Shown here: piece after piece, positions 40,915 through 47,278 of the stretch
Layout of the letters: every line of letters starts with the position of its first letter
Numbering within the stretch: position 1 is the stretch's first letter
Assembly: GCA_023249305.1 (NCBI GenBank)
Contig: JAHFCU010000009.1
Location: forward strand, 1-64,000
DNA: 64,000 nt
Direction: 5' to 3'
From: Gemmatimonadota bacterium
GTDB lineage: Bacteria; Gemmatimonadota; Gemmatimonadetes; Gemmatimonadales; Gemmatimonadaceae
Notes under the pieces: model-generated
Told to the model about the DNA's origin: nothing
Seen by the model: the letters and a program-made list of their open reading frames with translations, nothing else
Databases searched by the model: none
Translations under genes and position numbers: made by a program

Positions 40915-42291
40915 ATGAGATCAGACACGCTCGCATCACTGCTCGGGATGTTCATTAGTCTCGCATTCTGGGCCGGAGTCATCTACGTCGTCTGGCGCAT
41001 TGCCCGTCGGAGGTTCTCGGCGCAGGGCGCCGGCCCCCGGGCCGCCCTTTCACTGCAGAATGACGAACTGCGCTCGCTCGTCACGCCGCGCACCCCGAAG
41101 AACACGTTCAGCGCCGCCACGGCTTTGCGCGACAAGCTCGCTGAACGCTTCCTGGCGGTGTGCAAGCAAGTGCCGGCCGAAGTCATCGCCTACACGTCAC
41201 CGGCGCTGAGCCCGCCTGCCTGGGTCCATTTCGAATTCGTCCTGCCGGCGGAGCACCGGAACCTGAGCCTGCGCGCATCGTGCAAGATCACCGTCGAGTC
41301 GCTCGATTTTCACCGGTTTGAGCATCTGCTGACGGTAGAGCTCACCGAAGCCAAGCGCCGGCGTGTCTACTCCGGCGTCATCGGCCTCGACGAGGGCCAG
41401 ATGCGCTCGATCATCGAGTACCTAACGGCTCCGATTCTGCCCGAAGTCCCGAAGTTGCCCATGGTGCGCCAGCATCCACTCCAGTTCTGGCGCCCGAGGA
41501 ACAAGATTGACCGCCTGCATCCGGACTGGACGGAGGTTGGTCTCGGGCTGCTCGCCTTCGCGCTCTTCTTCTTCACGTTCGGGTTCGCGCCGTTTGTGGG
41601 CCAAGTCGTGGCGCTGGGCGTCGTCTACTTTCTCGTGGTCCGGAGCCGCGCCCGCAAGACGTATGTGCTGACGCCGGGCAAGCCGCTGCACGATCCGCGG
41701 CTGCTGCGGCGCTTCGATTCGTGGCAGGCCAACATCTACGGCCTCGGCATGCGCGCCGATGAAGTGCGCGCCGACCTGCTCCAGCGTCTCAACACGCGGA
41801 CGGGGACCGAGACGCAGTTCTCCGTCGCCCCCGAGCGCATTTGGTACGCGGGTGTGGACGGCAAGGTCGAACGCGAGCAGATCGTGGTCAGCTACCGACG
41901 CGCCATGGCCTTCGTGCACGTGGAGGCGCATGGCGACGACCTGTACGTCGGCTGGGACAGCCACGTCAACACGGGCACTTGGATCGAGGAGACGCTCGCG
42001 GCTGGCATTGATCGCGAAACCGGCGAGAGCGTCGTGGCCAAGAAGGTCGTTCTCGGCATGCAGACGCCGAACGAGTATGACATCACCGACACGAGCTTCC
42101 TGACGGAGTGGCTGCATACGGTGGTGACGAAGCTCGTGCGACTGAAGATGGAGGAGCACCGAATTGACCAGCAGATTGACTTCGTGATCCAGCGCGGGTC
42201 GCGCGAAGCCGTGCTGCACGGCGAGGGCGTCGCGGCAGGACCGGCGCGCGGACGTGGCTTTCTCGCCGACCGCCTACAGCGGGTCGGGTAG
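40915..42291 (+). CDS. hypothetical membrane protein, paralog 1 of tandem pair
   Basis: ggagga upstream of ATG; N-terminal TM, central hydrophobic pair, long conserved soluble C-terminus shared with next gene. Confidence 0.85.
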   Translation: MRSDTLASLLGMFISLAFWAGVIYVVWRIARRRFSAQGAGPRAALSLQNDELRSLVTPRTPKNTFSAATALRDKLAERFLAVCKQVPAEVIAYTSPALSPPAWVHFEFVLPAEHRNLSLRASCKITVESLDFHRFEHLLTVELTEAKRRRVYSGVIGLDEGQMRSIIEYLTAPILPEVPKLPMVRQHPLQFWRPRNKIDRLHPDWTEVGLGLLAFALFFFTFGFAPFVGQVVALGVVYFLVVRSRARKTYVLTPGKPLHDPRLLRRFDSWQANIYGLGMRADEVRADLLQRLNTRTGTETQFSVAPERIWYAGVDGKVEREQIVVSYRRAMAFVHVEAHGDDLYVGWDSHVNTGTWIEETLAAGIDRETGESVVAKKVVLGMQTPNEYDITDTSFLTEWLHTVVTKLVRLKMEEHRIDQQIDFVIQRGSREAVLHGEGVAAGPARGRGFLADRLQRVG

Positions 42292-42306
42292 GCCGGGGAG
42301 CTCACC

Positions 42307-43863
42307 ATGAATTCCCTCGCATCCTTCATCGGCCCCCTCTTCAACTATCTGTTCCTGCTGAATTTCGTCGCCGCGTACTTCCTGTGGCGCATCACCGCGC
42401 TGAATCGGCTCATTGCCATCGGCGCCATACTGGACGGCCTGAACGGCACCGTGCGCGTGCTGGTCTTCGACATCATCATGCGTTCGTCATACGGCTCAAA
42501 CGTGTGGCTCGGGACTACTTCGTCATTCATTTATCTGGCGTCGTTGACGTGCCTGGTGGTCGGCGCGTATTTGTCGGCCCAGGGCCGAGTGACGACGCTG
42601 GCGGGCAACAACCGGTGGGACGTGCTGTCCGACGATCATCTGCGGTCACTCGTGACGCCGCGCCGGGCGCTGAACGGCCTGAGCGTGGCCACCGACCTGC
42701 GCGATACGCTGCTCGATCGGTTTCTCGCGAGCTGTGCGCGGCTCAAGGTGGAGGTCGTCGCCTACAAGTCACCTGCACTGAGCCAGCCCGTCTGGGCCCA
42801 CTTTGAGTTCGTCCTACCGTCCGCGCACAAGAACCTGAGCCTGCGGGCGTCATGCCGGATTACGGTCGAGACGCTGGACTTCCATCGCTTTGAGCGCCTG
42901 CTGACGATCGAGCTGACAGAGGCCAAGCGCCGTCGCGTTTACTACGGCGTCACCGGACTCAATGACGAACAGATTCGTTCGGTCATCGAGTTCGTCACGG
43001 CGCCGGATGTGCGAAAGGCCCCGAAGTTGCCCACGGTCCGCCAGCATCCGCTGCAACTCTGGCGTCCGGGCAACAGGATTGATCGGCTGCATCCGGACTG
43101 GCCAGCGCTCGGGCTTGGCGCGCTCGCCGCGGTCTTCTTCCTCGGTGCGCGGGCCATTCCGATCCCGTTCGTCGGCCTGCTCGTTTCCGTCGGCCTCATC
43201 GTCTACCTGTTCATTCGAGGCAGTCGCCGCAAGACTTATGTGCTGACGCCGGGCAAGCCGCTGCACGATCCGCGGCTCCTGCGGCGCTTCGACTCGTGGC
43301 AGGCCAACATCTACGGCCTCGGCGTGCGCGCCGATGAAGTGCGCGCTGACCTTCTGCAGCGCCTCCGCACGCGGACGGGAACCGAGACGCAGTTCTCCGT
43401 TGCGCCTGAGCGCATCTGGTACGCGGGTGTGGACGGCAAGGTCGAACGCGAGCAGATCGTCGTCGGCTACCGGCGCGCCATGGCCTTCGTGCACGTGGAG
43501 GCGCATGGCGACGACCTGTATGTGGGTTGGGACAGCCACGTCAACACCGGCACCTGGGTGGAACAGACGCTCGCCTCTGGGATTGACCGTGAGTCGGGCA
43601 AGCACGTGGTGGCGAAACATGTCGTCATCGGCACGCAGGCGCCGAACGAGTACGACATCACCGACACGAACTTCCTGACGGAGTGGCTGCACACGGTGGT
43701 CACTCGGAACGTGCGGCTCAAGATGGAGGAGCATCGGATTGATCAGGAGATTGACTTCGTGATCCAGCGCGGGTCGCGCGAGGCCGTGCTGCGCGGTGAT
43801 GAAGGCGGAGCCGTTCCGACGCGCGGACACAGCCTGCTCGGCGGCGCGAAGCGGGTCGCGTAG
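42307..43863 (+). CDS. hypothetical membrane protein, paralog 2 of tandem pair
   Basis: Near-identical C-terminal half to 40915..42291, different N-terminal TM region; 15-nt gap. Confidence 0.85.
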   Translation: MNSLASFIGPLFNYLFLLNFVAAYFLWRITALNRLIAIGAILDGLNGTVRVLVFDIIMRSSYGSNVWLGTTSSFIYLASLTCLVVGAYLSAQGRVTTLAGNNRWDVLSDDHLRSLVTPRRALNGLSVATDLRDTLLDRFLASCARLKVEVVAYKSPALSQPVWAHFEFVLPSAHKNLSLRASCRITVETLDFHRFERLLTIELTEAKRRRVYYGVTGLNDEQIRSVIEFVTAPDVRKAPKLPTVRQHPLQLWRPGNRIDRLHPDWPALGLGALAAVFFLGARAIPIPFVGLLVSVGLIVYLFIRGSRRKTYVLTPGKPLHDPRLLRRFDSWQANIYGLGVRADEVRADLLQRLRTRTGTETQFSVAPERIWYAGVDGKVEREQIVVGYRRAMAFVHVEAHGDDLYVGWDSHVNTGTWVEQTLASGIDRESGKHVVAKHVVIGTQAPNEYDITDTNFLTEWLHTVVTRNVRLKMEEHRIDQEIDFVIQRGSREAVLRGDEGGAVPTRGHSLLGGAKRVA

Positions 43864-43874
43864 CGCGTAGGTTC

Positions 43875-45146
43875 ATGTACTTCGCGAGGTTTGAACTCGG
43901 CAACACCAGTGTGGGAGTCGCGGCGCTGACAGTCGGGCGGGCGACTCCCACGCTGTTGCCGCCGCCGTGGGTTGACCGCCTGCTGGCGGCGCGTGACTGC
44001 GCGTTTGCCGTTCGCCTCGTCGCGAACGGTCCAGCGCCGGCCACCACGCTCCTGGTGAGCTCGGAGCACGACGACGAACTCGAAGCGCTGTGCCGCGAGT
44101 TGTTGGGCACCGTGCCTCCCGCGGAGGGGGCGACCGCGGCCGGCGATGTGGCGACGTTCGACCGCCTCGTGAGCCCGCCGCCTTGCCAGCTCTGGCTGAA
44201 CCACGGCGGGTATCAGGCAAATGGAAGGCCGCTGGCCACCGACTTCCGGCTCTTTCCCCAGATCGAGCCGCTCGCCCGGCGCACGGGTGGGCTGGTGTAT
44301 CAGTGCTGCTTTGCCGCGCATCGTCCCGAGCGCGAGTTCGAGCGAGTCGCGCGGAAGTTCCTGGCCGCGCTCCGCGTGGAGTCGCCCTTCCCACCGGCCG
44401 TCACGGAGCTGCAGTCCACGCTGGCGTCGCGGCTGCTGCAGGGTGGCTTCCTGAGCGACGAGCTTATGGGATTCGAGTCGGCTGCAGGCCTGGCGATAGC
44501 GGCGAGCGCCATCGAGGAGAGCTTCCAGGGCACGATGGGGCACTTCGGCTTCGTGGGATCACCCGTCGAGAGCGGAGACTTTCAGGAACTGTTCGTGACG
44601 GGGCTGCATTCCACGCGCTTTGCCCCGGATTCGCATTTCATCACGCGAGCCGCCTCGATCATGTCGGCAGACGAGACGCGGCAGTTCCTGCAACTTCGCA
44701 CGAGCGGCGACGGTGGTAAGGCGACAGTCTCAGACGGCGTCGCCGGCGTGCCGTCCATCTTTCTCAGCTACTCCTCTTCCGACTTCACGCAGGCGTGGGC
44801 GACCTGCCAGTTCCTTGAACGCCACGGCCTGTACTGCTGGATCGCGCCACGCAACATCCTGCCGGGCGAGCCGTATCCCGAGGCCATCATGCGCGGCTTG
44901 AACGACGCCCGGGCCCTTGTCGTGCTCGTCTCCGGCGCGTCGAATCTCTCGCCGCATGTCCATCGCGAAATCGAGCGGGCGCTGCATAACCACGCCGTGA
45001 TCATCCCGATGCGCGTGCAAGACGTCATCCCGACCGGCACCATGGAGTACTTGCTCAGCACCTGCCAGTGGCTCGACGCCTTCGCCGCGTTCGAGCAGTC
45101 GCTGGACGAGCTGCGCGGCCGACTGCGGGGCCTGCTTGGACTCTGA
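43875..45146 (+). CDS. TIR-domain protein with unassigned ~290-aa N-terminal region
   Basis: C-terminal VPSIFLSYSSSDFTQAWATCQFLERHGLYCWIAPRNILPGEPYPEAIMRGLNDARALVVLVSGASNLSPHVHREIERALHNHAVIIPMRVQDVIPTGTMEYLLSTCQWLDAF matches bacterial TIR family consensus. Confidence 0.88.
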   Translation: MYFARFELGNTSVGVAALTVGRATPTLLPPPWVDRLLAARDCAFAVRLVANGPAPATTLLVSSEHDDELEALCRELLGTVPPAEGATAAGDVATFDRLVSPPPCQLWLNHGGYQANGRPLATDFRLFPQIEPLARRTGGLVYQCCFAAHRPEREFERVARKFLAALRVESPFPPAVTELQSTLASRLLQGGFLSDELMGFESAAGLAIAASAIEESFQGTMGHFGFVGSPVESGDFQELFVTGLHSTRFAPDSHFITRAASIMSADETRQFLQLRTSGDGGKATVSDGVAGVPSIFLSYSSSDFTQAWATCQFLERHGLYCWIAPRNILPGEPYPEAIMRGLNDARALVVLVSGASNLSPHVHREIERALHNHAVIIPMRVQDVIPTGTMEYLLSTCQWLDAFAAFEQSLDELRGRLRGLLGL

Positions 45147-47151
45147 GAACACACCGCTGCGCGAGCGCGCCGCGTCGTCGCCGCCGCGCGCTCCTCTCGC
45201 GTTCCGCGTGGGCGTCGTGGGGCATCGGCCGCACAAGCTGAGGGACGCCAACCTCCCAGCACTGGCGTCGCTGTTCCGCGACGTGTTGACGACCGTGAGG
45301 GACGCCGTGCGCACGTACGCCCTCGACCAACCAAGCGTCTACGACGGCGCGAGCCCGATGCTGCGGGTCATCTCGCCGCTCGCCGAGGGTGCCGACCGGT
45401 TGTTCGCCGAAGAGGCGTTGACAGTTGGGTACGCCATCTGTTGTCCGATGCCGTTCTTCGAGGAGGATTTTGAGAGGGACTTCGTGGCCAGCGCAGCCGA
45501 GGAGCCCGACTCACTCGAGCGATTCCACCGCTTGCTCGACCGCGCGCGGCAGGGCCCTGGGCTGATGAAGTTCGAGATGGACGGCGATCGCGCGGATCCG
45601 GCGCGGGCGTACGCGGCTGCCGGCAGCGTCGTCGTGAACCAGTCGGATCTTCTCGTCGTCGTCTGGGACGGACGGCCGCCCGATGGACCCGGCGGAACGT
45701 ACGGCACTCTTCGCGAAGCGCTAGCCTGCGGCGTCCCCGTGGTCTGGGTTGATGCCGCGGGACCGCATGCCTGCCAGATACTGCGACACGGCACGGACCC
45801 CCCGCAGCCGACGGACGCGTCCCCGAGCCGGCCGACGGATCAACGCGCAAGTCTCACGGCGCAGTTGGTCGCGATCGTGCGCGAGACGCTGGCGCCGCCG
45901 AGCACAACAGCAGGTTCACACCGCGACGACAACGCGTCGTCGCCGCGGGACCTGCGAACAGAGTACTTCCGGGAACGCAGGCCCGTCTGGCATCCGTGGT
46001 TCCTCTGGAAGTTCTTGCGGGACCTGCTCGGCGATGGTCGCCTCAGTTTTCAGAGTCTCCGGCTTGAGAACTTCGAGCAAGCGGCCACGCACGATTGGCC
46101 GATCGCCCCCGAAGAAGTTGAGGGACGAACGCCATCGCCGATTGAGTTGTGGGTGAACCAACGCTTGCGCGCTCACTACGCCTGGGCGGACCGGCTCGCC
46201 GACCTGTACGCGGACAAGTACCGCAGCGCGTTCACGCTCGTGTACTCGCTCGCCGCGCTCGCGGTGCTCCTCGCGCTCCTCCCGGTATTCGTGCGGGAGG
46301 TCGGCTTCCCCACCCTGACGCGGATCGAGGTCTTTGCGTGGCTCGAAGGCGCGACCATGATCGTCCTGCTCGCGGTGCTCGCAACCGGACGAATCCGCCG
46401 CTGGCATGATCGGTGGCTGGACTATCGGCTGGTGGCGGAGCTCGTGCGAGAACTTCGCATTCTCCTGCCGCTCGGCGGCGGGAGACCGACACCGAGACCG
46501 CCGGCGCACTTGTCGGCGTACGGAGATCCCGCGCGATCGTGGATGTTCTGGCACTTGAACGGCATCGCGCGCGCGACGGGATTGCCCGATGCGAAGCTGT
46601 CGCGGGAGCATCTGCAGGAGAGCGTGACCTACCTGCGCAACGTCATCTCGGGAGCAGCCAACTCGGCCGGTCAGGTTCGCTTTCACCAAGGCGCGGCTCG
46701 CTCGTCCGCGCGGATTCACCATCGTCTGCACGTCGTCACGGTGTTCGCCTTCGCTCTGACGGTCGCCTGCGTCGCGGGCCATCTGATCTTCGAGGTGTTT
46801 CCCGGTGCGCTCGATGCAGCGAGAGGAACGCTGCTGGGCGACCAGTGGTTGGAGTGGATCAGGCCGGCGCTTTGGGTCGGCACGGCCTTTCTGCCCGCGT
46901 TCGGCGCGGCTGCGGCCGGACTGATCAACCAAGGGGAGTTTGCCCGTATGGCGAAGCGGTCGGAGGCGATGAGCGAGCGCTTCTTGCAGATTGACGGCGA
47001 GCTTCAAGCGCTCGAGCGGCGCATGGTTTTGGGTCAGCCCGTCACGTCAGCGGAGATCGCGGCGCAGGCCAGTCGCACGGCGCAACTGATGGTGGATGAA
47101 GTGCTCGACTGGCGCGTTGTCTTCGTGCACCGGCCGCTCGCGCAGCCGTAG
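45136..47151 (+). CDS. SLOG-like nucleotide-sensor domain fused to multi-TM (SLATT-like) region; TTG start
   Basis: FRVGVVGHRPHKL...PLAEGADRLFAEEALTVGYAICCPMPFFEEDFERDF...NQSDLLVVVWDGRPPDGPGGTYGTLREALACGVPVVWVD, then two hydrophobic-helix pairs; overlaps TIR gene by 11 nt. Confidence 0.8.
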   Translation: MDSENTPLRERAASSPPRAPLAFRVGVVGHRPHKLRDANLPALASLFRDVLTTVRDAVRTYALDQPSVYDGASPMLRVISPLAEGADRLFAEEALTVGYAICCPMPFFEEDFERDFVASAAEEPDSLERFHRLLDRARQGPGLMKFEMDGDRADPARAYAAAGSVVVNQSDLLVVVWDGRPPDGPGGTYGTLREALACGVPVVWVDAAGPHACQILRHGTDPPQPTDASPSRPTDQRASLTAQLVAIVRETLAPPSTTAGSHRDDNASSPRDLRTEYFRERRPVWHPWFLWKFLRDLLGDGRLSFQSLRLENFEQAATHDWPIAPEEVEGRTPSPIELWVNQRLRAHYAWADRLADLYADKYRSAFTLVYSLAALAVLLALLPVFVREVGFPTLTRIEVFAWLEGATMIVLLAVLATGRIRRWHDRWLDYRLVAELVRELRILLPLGGGRPTPRPPAHLSAYGDPARSWMFWHLNGIARATGLPDAKLSREHLQESVTYLRNVISGAANSAGQVRFHQGAARSSARIHHRLHVVTVFAFALTVACVAGHLIFEVFPGALDAARGTLLGDQWLEWIRPALWVGTAFLPAFGAAAAGLINQGEFARMAKRSEAMSERFLQIDGELQALERRMVLGQPVTSAEIAAQASRTAQLMVDEVLDWRVVFVHRPLAQP

Positions 47152-47172
47152 GCGCGCGAGGCCGCTGTGAGA

Positions 47173-47257
47173 TACCGGGGCCGGGAATCGAACCCGGATG
47201 GGGTTGCCCCCAAGGGATTTTAAGTCCCTCGCGTCTAGCCAGTTTCGCCACCCCGGC
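47173..47257 (-). tRNA. tRNA-Leu (anticodon TAA)
   Basis: Minus strand GCCGGGGTGGCGAAACTGGCTAGACGCGAGGGACTTAAAATCCCTTGGGGGCAACCCCATCCGGGTTCGATTCCCGGCCCCGGTA; class II variable arm. Confidence 0.95.
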
Positions 47258-47278
47258 AGGCACTACGATCGAAGGATC

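Follow-up and report, generated by a model that had tools for sequence, protein, structure and literature searches.

TIR enzymes make signals, and the partners of these enzymes have come to light mostly through operon linkage. The bacterial members cleave NAD+ by means of a conserved glutamate, and their products (3'cADPR, His-ADPR or N7-cADPR) serve a partner encoded in the same operon; alternatively, NAD+ is depleted (PMC11204291, PMC12847820). In type I Thoeris the cADPR sensor is the SLOG domain of ThsA (PMC11204291, PMC12847820), and SLATT/2TM proteins encoded beside TIR genes have been predicted to be ADPr-regulated membrane effectors (PMC9503650, PMC7159879). Here, we analyzed four adjacent genes in a window of 64,000 nt (the whole stretch of DNA under study) that combine a TIR protein and a SLOG-bearing membrane protein with two further membrane proteins. 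From their sequences, we interpret them as a conflict operon with TIR-based nucleotide signalling, most likely serving defence of the abortive-infection type, and put the probability of this reading at roughly one half.

The operon and its TIR and SLOG proteins

The four genes all lie on the plus strand and are packed as one operon: 15 nt separate genes 1 and 2, 11 nt separate genes 2 and 3, and genes 3 and 4 overlap by 11 nt (Table 1), exactly as given in the first-pass annotation. The putative start codon of gene 4, a TTG, is the first possible one and lies within the overlap. That unrelated genes came to be neighbours here by chance is hardly credible: the exact four-gene set was seen once, but the spacing is tight, and the independent recurrence of the gene 2-gene 3 and TIR-gene 4 links, described below, already refutes chance for both of them.

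Upstream of the operon are ROK, MFS and SIS genes and downstream is a gene for a Big_1 protein, and judging from these neighbours in the window the operon is not located in a defence island. A tRNA-Leu gene, oriented with its 3' end towards the operon, lies 20 nt past gene 4 and is directly followed by the gene for the protein with Big_1 (bacterial Ig-like) domains; a tRNA-Asn gene is also found ~540 nt downstream in the related Acidobacteriota locus (L124, see below). The two tRNA sites are possible insertion hot spots. Use of the tRNA-Leu gene as an integration site was considered and set aside, as a second copy of its 3' end was not found in the window and therefore no attachment site is shown. 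Among Rfam elements, tRNAs alone were found in the window.

Table 1. Positions of the operon genes, their domains and adjacent features in the window.
Feature	Position	Strand	Basis or remark
Gene 1, 458 aa, membrane protein, short paralog of gene 2	40915..42291	+	ORF, TM prediction
Gene 2, 518 aa, membrane protein, full-length form of the new family	42307..43863	+	ORF, TM prediction
Gene 2 C-terminal soluble region, residues 307-495	43225..43791	+	Most conserved part of the family
Gene 3, 423 aa	43875..45146	+	ORF
Gene 3 N-terminal region, ~285 aa, new conserved domain	43875..44729	+	Unmatched; 41% identical in L124
Gene 3 TIR domain, residues 295-413	44757..45113	+	PF13676, E 9.4e-19
Glu365 codon, putative catalytic glutamate (SPHVHREIE)	44967..44969	+	Alignment column
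Gene 4, 671 aa, SLOG + 4 TM	45136..47151	+	ORF; relatives of equal length and architecture
SLOG domain, residues 20-216 (RVGVVGHR, SPLAEGADR, GPGGT)	45193..45783	+	Family conservation, relatives' matches, Foldseek
DUF4231/SLATT-like TM hairpin, residues 356-441	46201..46458	+	PF14015, E 4e-7
Second TM hairpin, residues 533-597	46732..46926	+	Hydropathy; AF2 helices 513-554 and 568-600
tRNA-Leu gene	47171..47258	-	
1411-aa protein with Big_1 domains	47392..51627		

Gene 3 ends in a TIR domain, as first read from the letters alone, which scored 68.5 bits against TIR_2 (PF13676; Pfam cut-off 28), while the ThsB_TIR family (PF08937) reached 18.8 bits, below its cut-off of 21.2. The alignment column of Glu365 holds a glutamate in all 42 TIR domains that reach it, and the residue is kept in the L124 homologue. 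With the TIR fold and this conserved, putatively catalytic residue, the domain qualifies by its sequence as a TIR of the enzyme type. The protein has no TM segments according to hydropathy, and it carries the TIR domain at its C-terminus, whereas in most TIR proteins encoded beside relatives of gene 4 the domain is at the N-terminus. Its N-terminal region found no match in Pfam, PADLOC, NCBIfam or PHROGs.

Gene 4 had been described as a SLOG-like region continuing into membrane helices, and both parts were recovered. The sequence itself has no SLOG match in Pfam; single relatives match SLOG families (YpsA at 7.6e-5, YAcAr at 7.9e-4 and DprA weakly), and the family-conserved motifs RVGVxGHR, SxLAEGAD and DLLIAVWDG..GPGGT occupy the positions expected of a SLOG nucleotide site. 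An AF2 model from 29 sequences (mean pLDDT 88.4, pTM 0.88) has an alpha/beta domain at residues 20-216 followed by long helix pairs. Foldseek comparison of this model with the PDB retrieved DprA (3uqz), TM1055 (1rcu) and ShosA (8zva) with probability 1.00; the E-values are weak (0.02-0.2), since the long helices draw in ABC transporters. Comparison with viral models retrieved several YspA/cpYpsA-related SLOG proteins, also with probability 1.00, the best viral E-value (1.2e-6) being to an unnamed 171-aa protein. On the motifs, the relatives' family matches and the predicted structure, we regard the SLOG assignment as settled. The membrane part contains four TM segments in a 2+2 arrangement (hydropathy). 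Its first hairpin matches DUF4231 (PF14015) with 30.9 bits (cut-off 24.7), as do 28 of 29 relatives. Matches to SLATT_1 fell below the cut-offs of both Pfam (11.6 bits against 26.3) and NCBIfam (E 3.1e-6, 27.2 bits against 41) while relatives of gene 4 reach 1.1e-5, and the protein is therefore best called SLATT-like rather than a member of the curated family. The idea that the two hairpins are duplicates of each other was dropped for want of profile support.

A membrane protein family linked to the TIR gene

Genes 1 and 2 are paralogs with 68% amino-acid identity overall and DNA repeats that are 78-86% identical. Their dN/dS of 0.32 (Nei-Gojobori) indicates purifying selection, so both look like maintained genes. 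Hydropathy predicts 1+2 TM segments in gene 1 (residues 8-26, 207-225 and 224-242) and 3+2 in gene 2 (near residues 4-22, 35-53, 73-91, 268-286 and 285-303), gene 1 being built of one N-terminal TM segment, a soluble region, a TM hairpin and a C-terminal soluble region. The central hairpin is flanked by basic residues, 3-4 before it and 5 after it, and by the positive-inside rule both soluble regions are predicted to be cytoplasmic. The C-terminal region of gene 2 is 90% identical to gene 1 and 65% identical to the L124 homologue. Gene 2, with its longer N-terminus, looks like the ancestral build and gene 1 like a shortened local duplicate, as far as their sequences suggest. Crude secondary structure hinted that the two soluble regions of gene 2 might have arisen by internal duplication, which was rejected as lacking profile support; an AF2 model of this protein, built on two sequences (pLDDT 36), was discarded as unusable. 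No family in Pfam, PADLOC, NCBIfam or PHROGs matched either gene, which agrees with the first-pass view that the paralogs lie outside known defence systems, and profile searches of the PDB with this family and with the N-terminal family of gene 3 found nothing.

Homologues of gene 2 were retrieved from 2 of 247 sampled Acidobacteriota-type genomes (G476 and G514), in which the homologues are nearly identical; since the two genomes are close relatives, we count them as one independent case. There, gene 2 is present as a single copy of 528 aa, 49% identical over its full length, and ends 6 nt ahead of a gene 3 homologue of 437 aa that is 48% identical (N-terminal region 41%, TIR 66%). No gene 4 is found beside this pair. 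Searches with the N-terminal region of gene 3 returned the same two genomes and no others among 396 of the Acidobacteriota-type phylum, and nothing beyond the window itself among 200 of the window's phylum, so that the two families occur together in all three genomes holding either. Relatives of genes 1 and 2 were absent from 149 related genomes, from 395 genomes of the window's phylum, from 65 gene 4 loci and from 43 genomes with gene 4 relatives. There was likewise no match by tblastn to plasmids (gene 2, the gene 3 N-terminal region and the L124 homologues) or to phages (gene 2). Pattern scans of genome and viral contigs for genes 1 and 2, which needed near-identical words of 7-9 residues, were empty; the empty genome-contig scan (KMEEHRI, xWxHFE) is not evidence of absence because it would miss the Acidobacteriota copies. 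A 73-residue match in G744 (Pseudomonadota) covers the TM hairpin only and was rejected as chance.

The first-pass annotation had read the four genes as one operon, in which the paralogs could be extra effectors, regulators or inhibitors. That set was not seen elsewhere: the Acidobacteriota unit consists of gene 2 and gene 3, one copy of each, without gene 4. As these two are conserved in the absence of gene 4, genes 1 and 2 are not add-ons but members of a family linked to this particular TIR protein, while gene 4 is not an obligate partner and looks like an exchangeable output. The conserved core is thus the gene 2-gene 3 pair, and the third place is filled differently. In L124 it is occupied by a gene (L124:11750-12226) that begins in an ATGA overlap with the end of the gene 3 homologue; its 158-aa product has a single TM segment, at the N-terminus, and no family match.

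The pair might also be a self-sufficient TIR system consisting of a membrane sensor and a TIR NADase, which would either kill by depleting NAD+ or make a signal for an additional partner; gene 4 would then be a later and separate second output. We consider this on the unlikely side. It would account for the pair without gene 4 in Acidobacteriota and for the equal conservation of the two genes (49% and 48%). However, gene 4 overlaps gene 3 in the window and its family accompanies TIR genes everywhere, which together make a functional tie within this operon likely; moreover, the third membrane gene of L124, overlapping the gene 3 homologue in the position of gene 4, suggests that such systems normally include a membrane protein for output.

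Genomic partners of the gene 4 family

The gene 4 family, as sampled here, comprises two Caballeronia plasmids, 22 of 298 same-phylum genomes (with full-length or partial copies) and 65 loci of many phyla. PF13676 domains are scarce in the 19 same-phylum genomes that hold a relative of gene 4 (0-3 per genome), and yet a TIR gene lies within 700 bp of that relative in 11 of the 19, against ~0.026 expected if randomly placed, and at ≤4 kb in 14. Over 76 distinct loci of the family, a TIR gene was found within 500 bp in at least 27 and within 3 kb in at least 40; these counts are lower bounds because a simple ORF caller missed some genes, and related loci among them are not independent. There is thus strong evidence that TIR plus SLOG-DUF4231 is a recurrent module across phyla, and the association first noticed in this one operon recurs well beyond it.

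The family is also often flanked by genes for patatin phospholipases, TrkA_N-RyR channel-like proteins, nSTAND-WD40 proteins and SIR2-TIR fusions, the kinds of gene that commonly accompany conflict systems. Patatin-like phospholipase genes stand beside the SLOG(-DUF4231) gene, often at <400 bp, in L043, L044, L051, L063, L068, L088, L089, L092, L094 and L100. TrkA_N proteins are encoded directly beside it in L056, L065, L067, L069, L101, L104, L106, L107, L108, L111, L115 and L116, and a RyR domain is also present in two of the three tested; TrkA_N is a second recurrent membrane partner of SLOG-DUF4231, possibly a nucleotide-gated channel. In Dadabacteria (L060:1860-6923, L061 and L064), two diverged SLOG-DUF4231 type genes are arranged in tandem, 7 nt apart, followed by a TIR gene. 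The Caballeronia SBC2 and SBC1 plasmids (L005 and L130) carry the same DUF4231 locus; a single 539-aa ORF forms the TIR gene in SBC2, but in SBC1 this gene is annotated as two shorter ones and so appears broken. The closest gene 4 relative found (42% identical, L057) is followed after 7 nt by a TIR-like start (MPYDVFVSYARRDD; L057:4345-4731), the short ORF of which probably breaks off by frameshift.

These associations bear on two further readings. Genes 1 and 2 could be the membrane effectors, with the SLOG domain of gene 4 modulating or degrading the TIR signal as a brake, an arrangement consistent with the tie of these membrane proteins to the TIR gene and with the ability of SLOG domains to act enzymatically on nucleotides (PMC9503650). 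We find this quite improbable, however, as gene 4 shows the usual build of a sensor plus TM effector and its family also stands beside unrelated TIR proteins without genes 1 and 2. It is more doubtful still that these domains serve a signalling operon outside defence, in the control of stress, development or lifestyle. No defence island or adjoining mobile-element gene marks the locus, and TIR-SLOG domains occur in other regulatory settings too, but the spread of the operon is sporadic (it is missing from the 10 listed congeners and from all other genomes of the phylum searched), the nearest gene 4 relatives are in other phyla (39-42% identity, against 25-36% within its own), and the associated gene families are of the conflict type.

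Proposed mechanism and comparison with known systems

In the conflict-operon reading that we favour, genes 1 and 2 would be inner-membrane proteins whose soluble regions face the cytoplasm and which, as their topology and linkage suggest, would act with the gene 3 N-terminal domain to keep the TIR enzyme off and sense a trigger. Upon triggering, the TIR domain would be released by genes 1 and 2 and by its own N-terminal domain and would convert NAD+ to a signal of the ADP-ribose type. This signal would be bound by the SLOG domain of gene 4, whose TM part would open or disrupt the membrane. Another small membrane protein would take the output place in Acidobacteriota. The TIR domain with Glu365, the SLOG domain joined to TM helices and the operon itself have direct sequence support; the other steps we infer. 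More tentatively, a new TIR immune system may be built around the gene 2-gene 3 pair: a two-part membrane protein family would detect the trigger and license the TIR enzyme, itself extended by a new N-terminal domain, and the system would accept different membrane proteins as effectors, SLOG-4TM in the window and the one-TM protein in Acidobacteriota.

The closest described arrangements are the TIR + SLOG/SLATT (2TM) systems predicted by Burroughs, Aravind and colleagues, in which a TIR gene likewise adjoins a 2TM SLATT-type membrane protein (PMC9503650, PMC7159879), with SLOG as the ADPr-type sensor and a predicted output on membrane permeability. The present operon differs in that gene 4 fuses SLOG to two TM hairpins (DUF4231 type) and that the N-terminal domain of its TIR protein is new; no description of the gene 1/2 family was found with these systems (PMC9503650, PMC7159879). 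In a Caballeronia locus (pSBC2-4, NZ_CP049320; SLOG-DUF4231, TIR and nSTAND/WD40), a gene 4 homologue also adjoins a TIR gene, but the TIR protein has no significant match to gene 3 and a STAND sensor replaces genes 1 and 2.

Type I Thoeris (ThsB TIR and ThsA SIR2-SLOG) likewise encodes, within a single operon, a TIR enzyme and a partner that bears SLOG; the present operon, however, has no SIR2, its predicted output is at the membrane rather than an NADase, and it has extra membrane proteins. It shares with type II Thoeris (ThsB TIR and ThsA TM-macro; PMC11204291) a TIR protein and a membrane effector gated by a nucleotide-binding domain, but SLOG replaces macro, the four TM helices of gene 4 follow the sensor instead of preceding it, and the extra membrane proteins again set it apart. 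A TIR-domain protein corresponding to ThsB is present (PF13676), whereas gene 4 has no SIR2 domain, macro domain or ThsA model match that would make it a ThsA of either form (SIR2-SLOG or TM-macro). As no SIR2 or macro effector is present, the operon is not Thoeris by membership: the first-pass label 'Thoeris-like' holds for the outline logic of a TIR with a SLOG partner and fails on the domains that define ThsA. In PADLOC-DB 2023, genes 1-4 gave generic TIR matches only and no system-specific model match.

The TIR + SLOG/SLATT theme is already known as a prediction, and in this form it is not in PADLOC 2023; the recurrent TIR + SLOG-DUF4231 module, equally absent there, is open to study in more tractable hosts. 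New here are the family of genes 1 and 2 and the N-terminal domain in gene 3, the linkage between these two, and their occurrence together with a SLOG-4TM protein. The linkage ties two undescribed domains to a TIR enzyme in each of two phyla; the SLOG-4TM protein is a direct, testable candidate receptor for the TIR product. If the proposed reading is true, gene 4 would be a SLOG-gated membrane effector that joins the sensor of type I Thoeris to the membrane output of type II, under a membrane-bound layer of control that known Thoeris systems lack.
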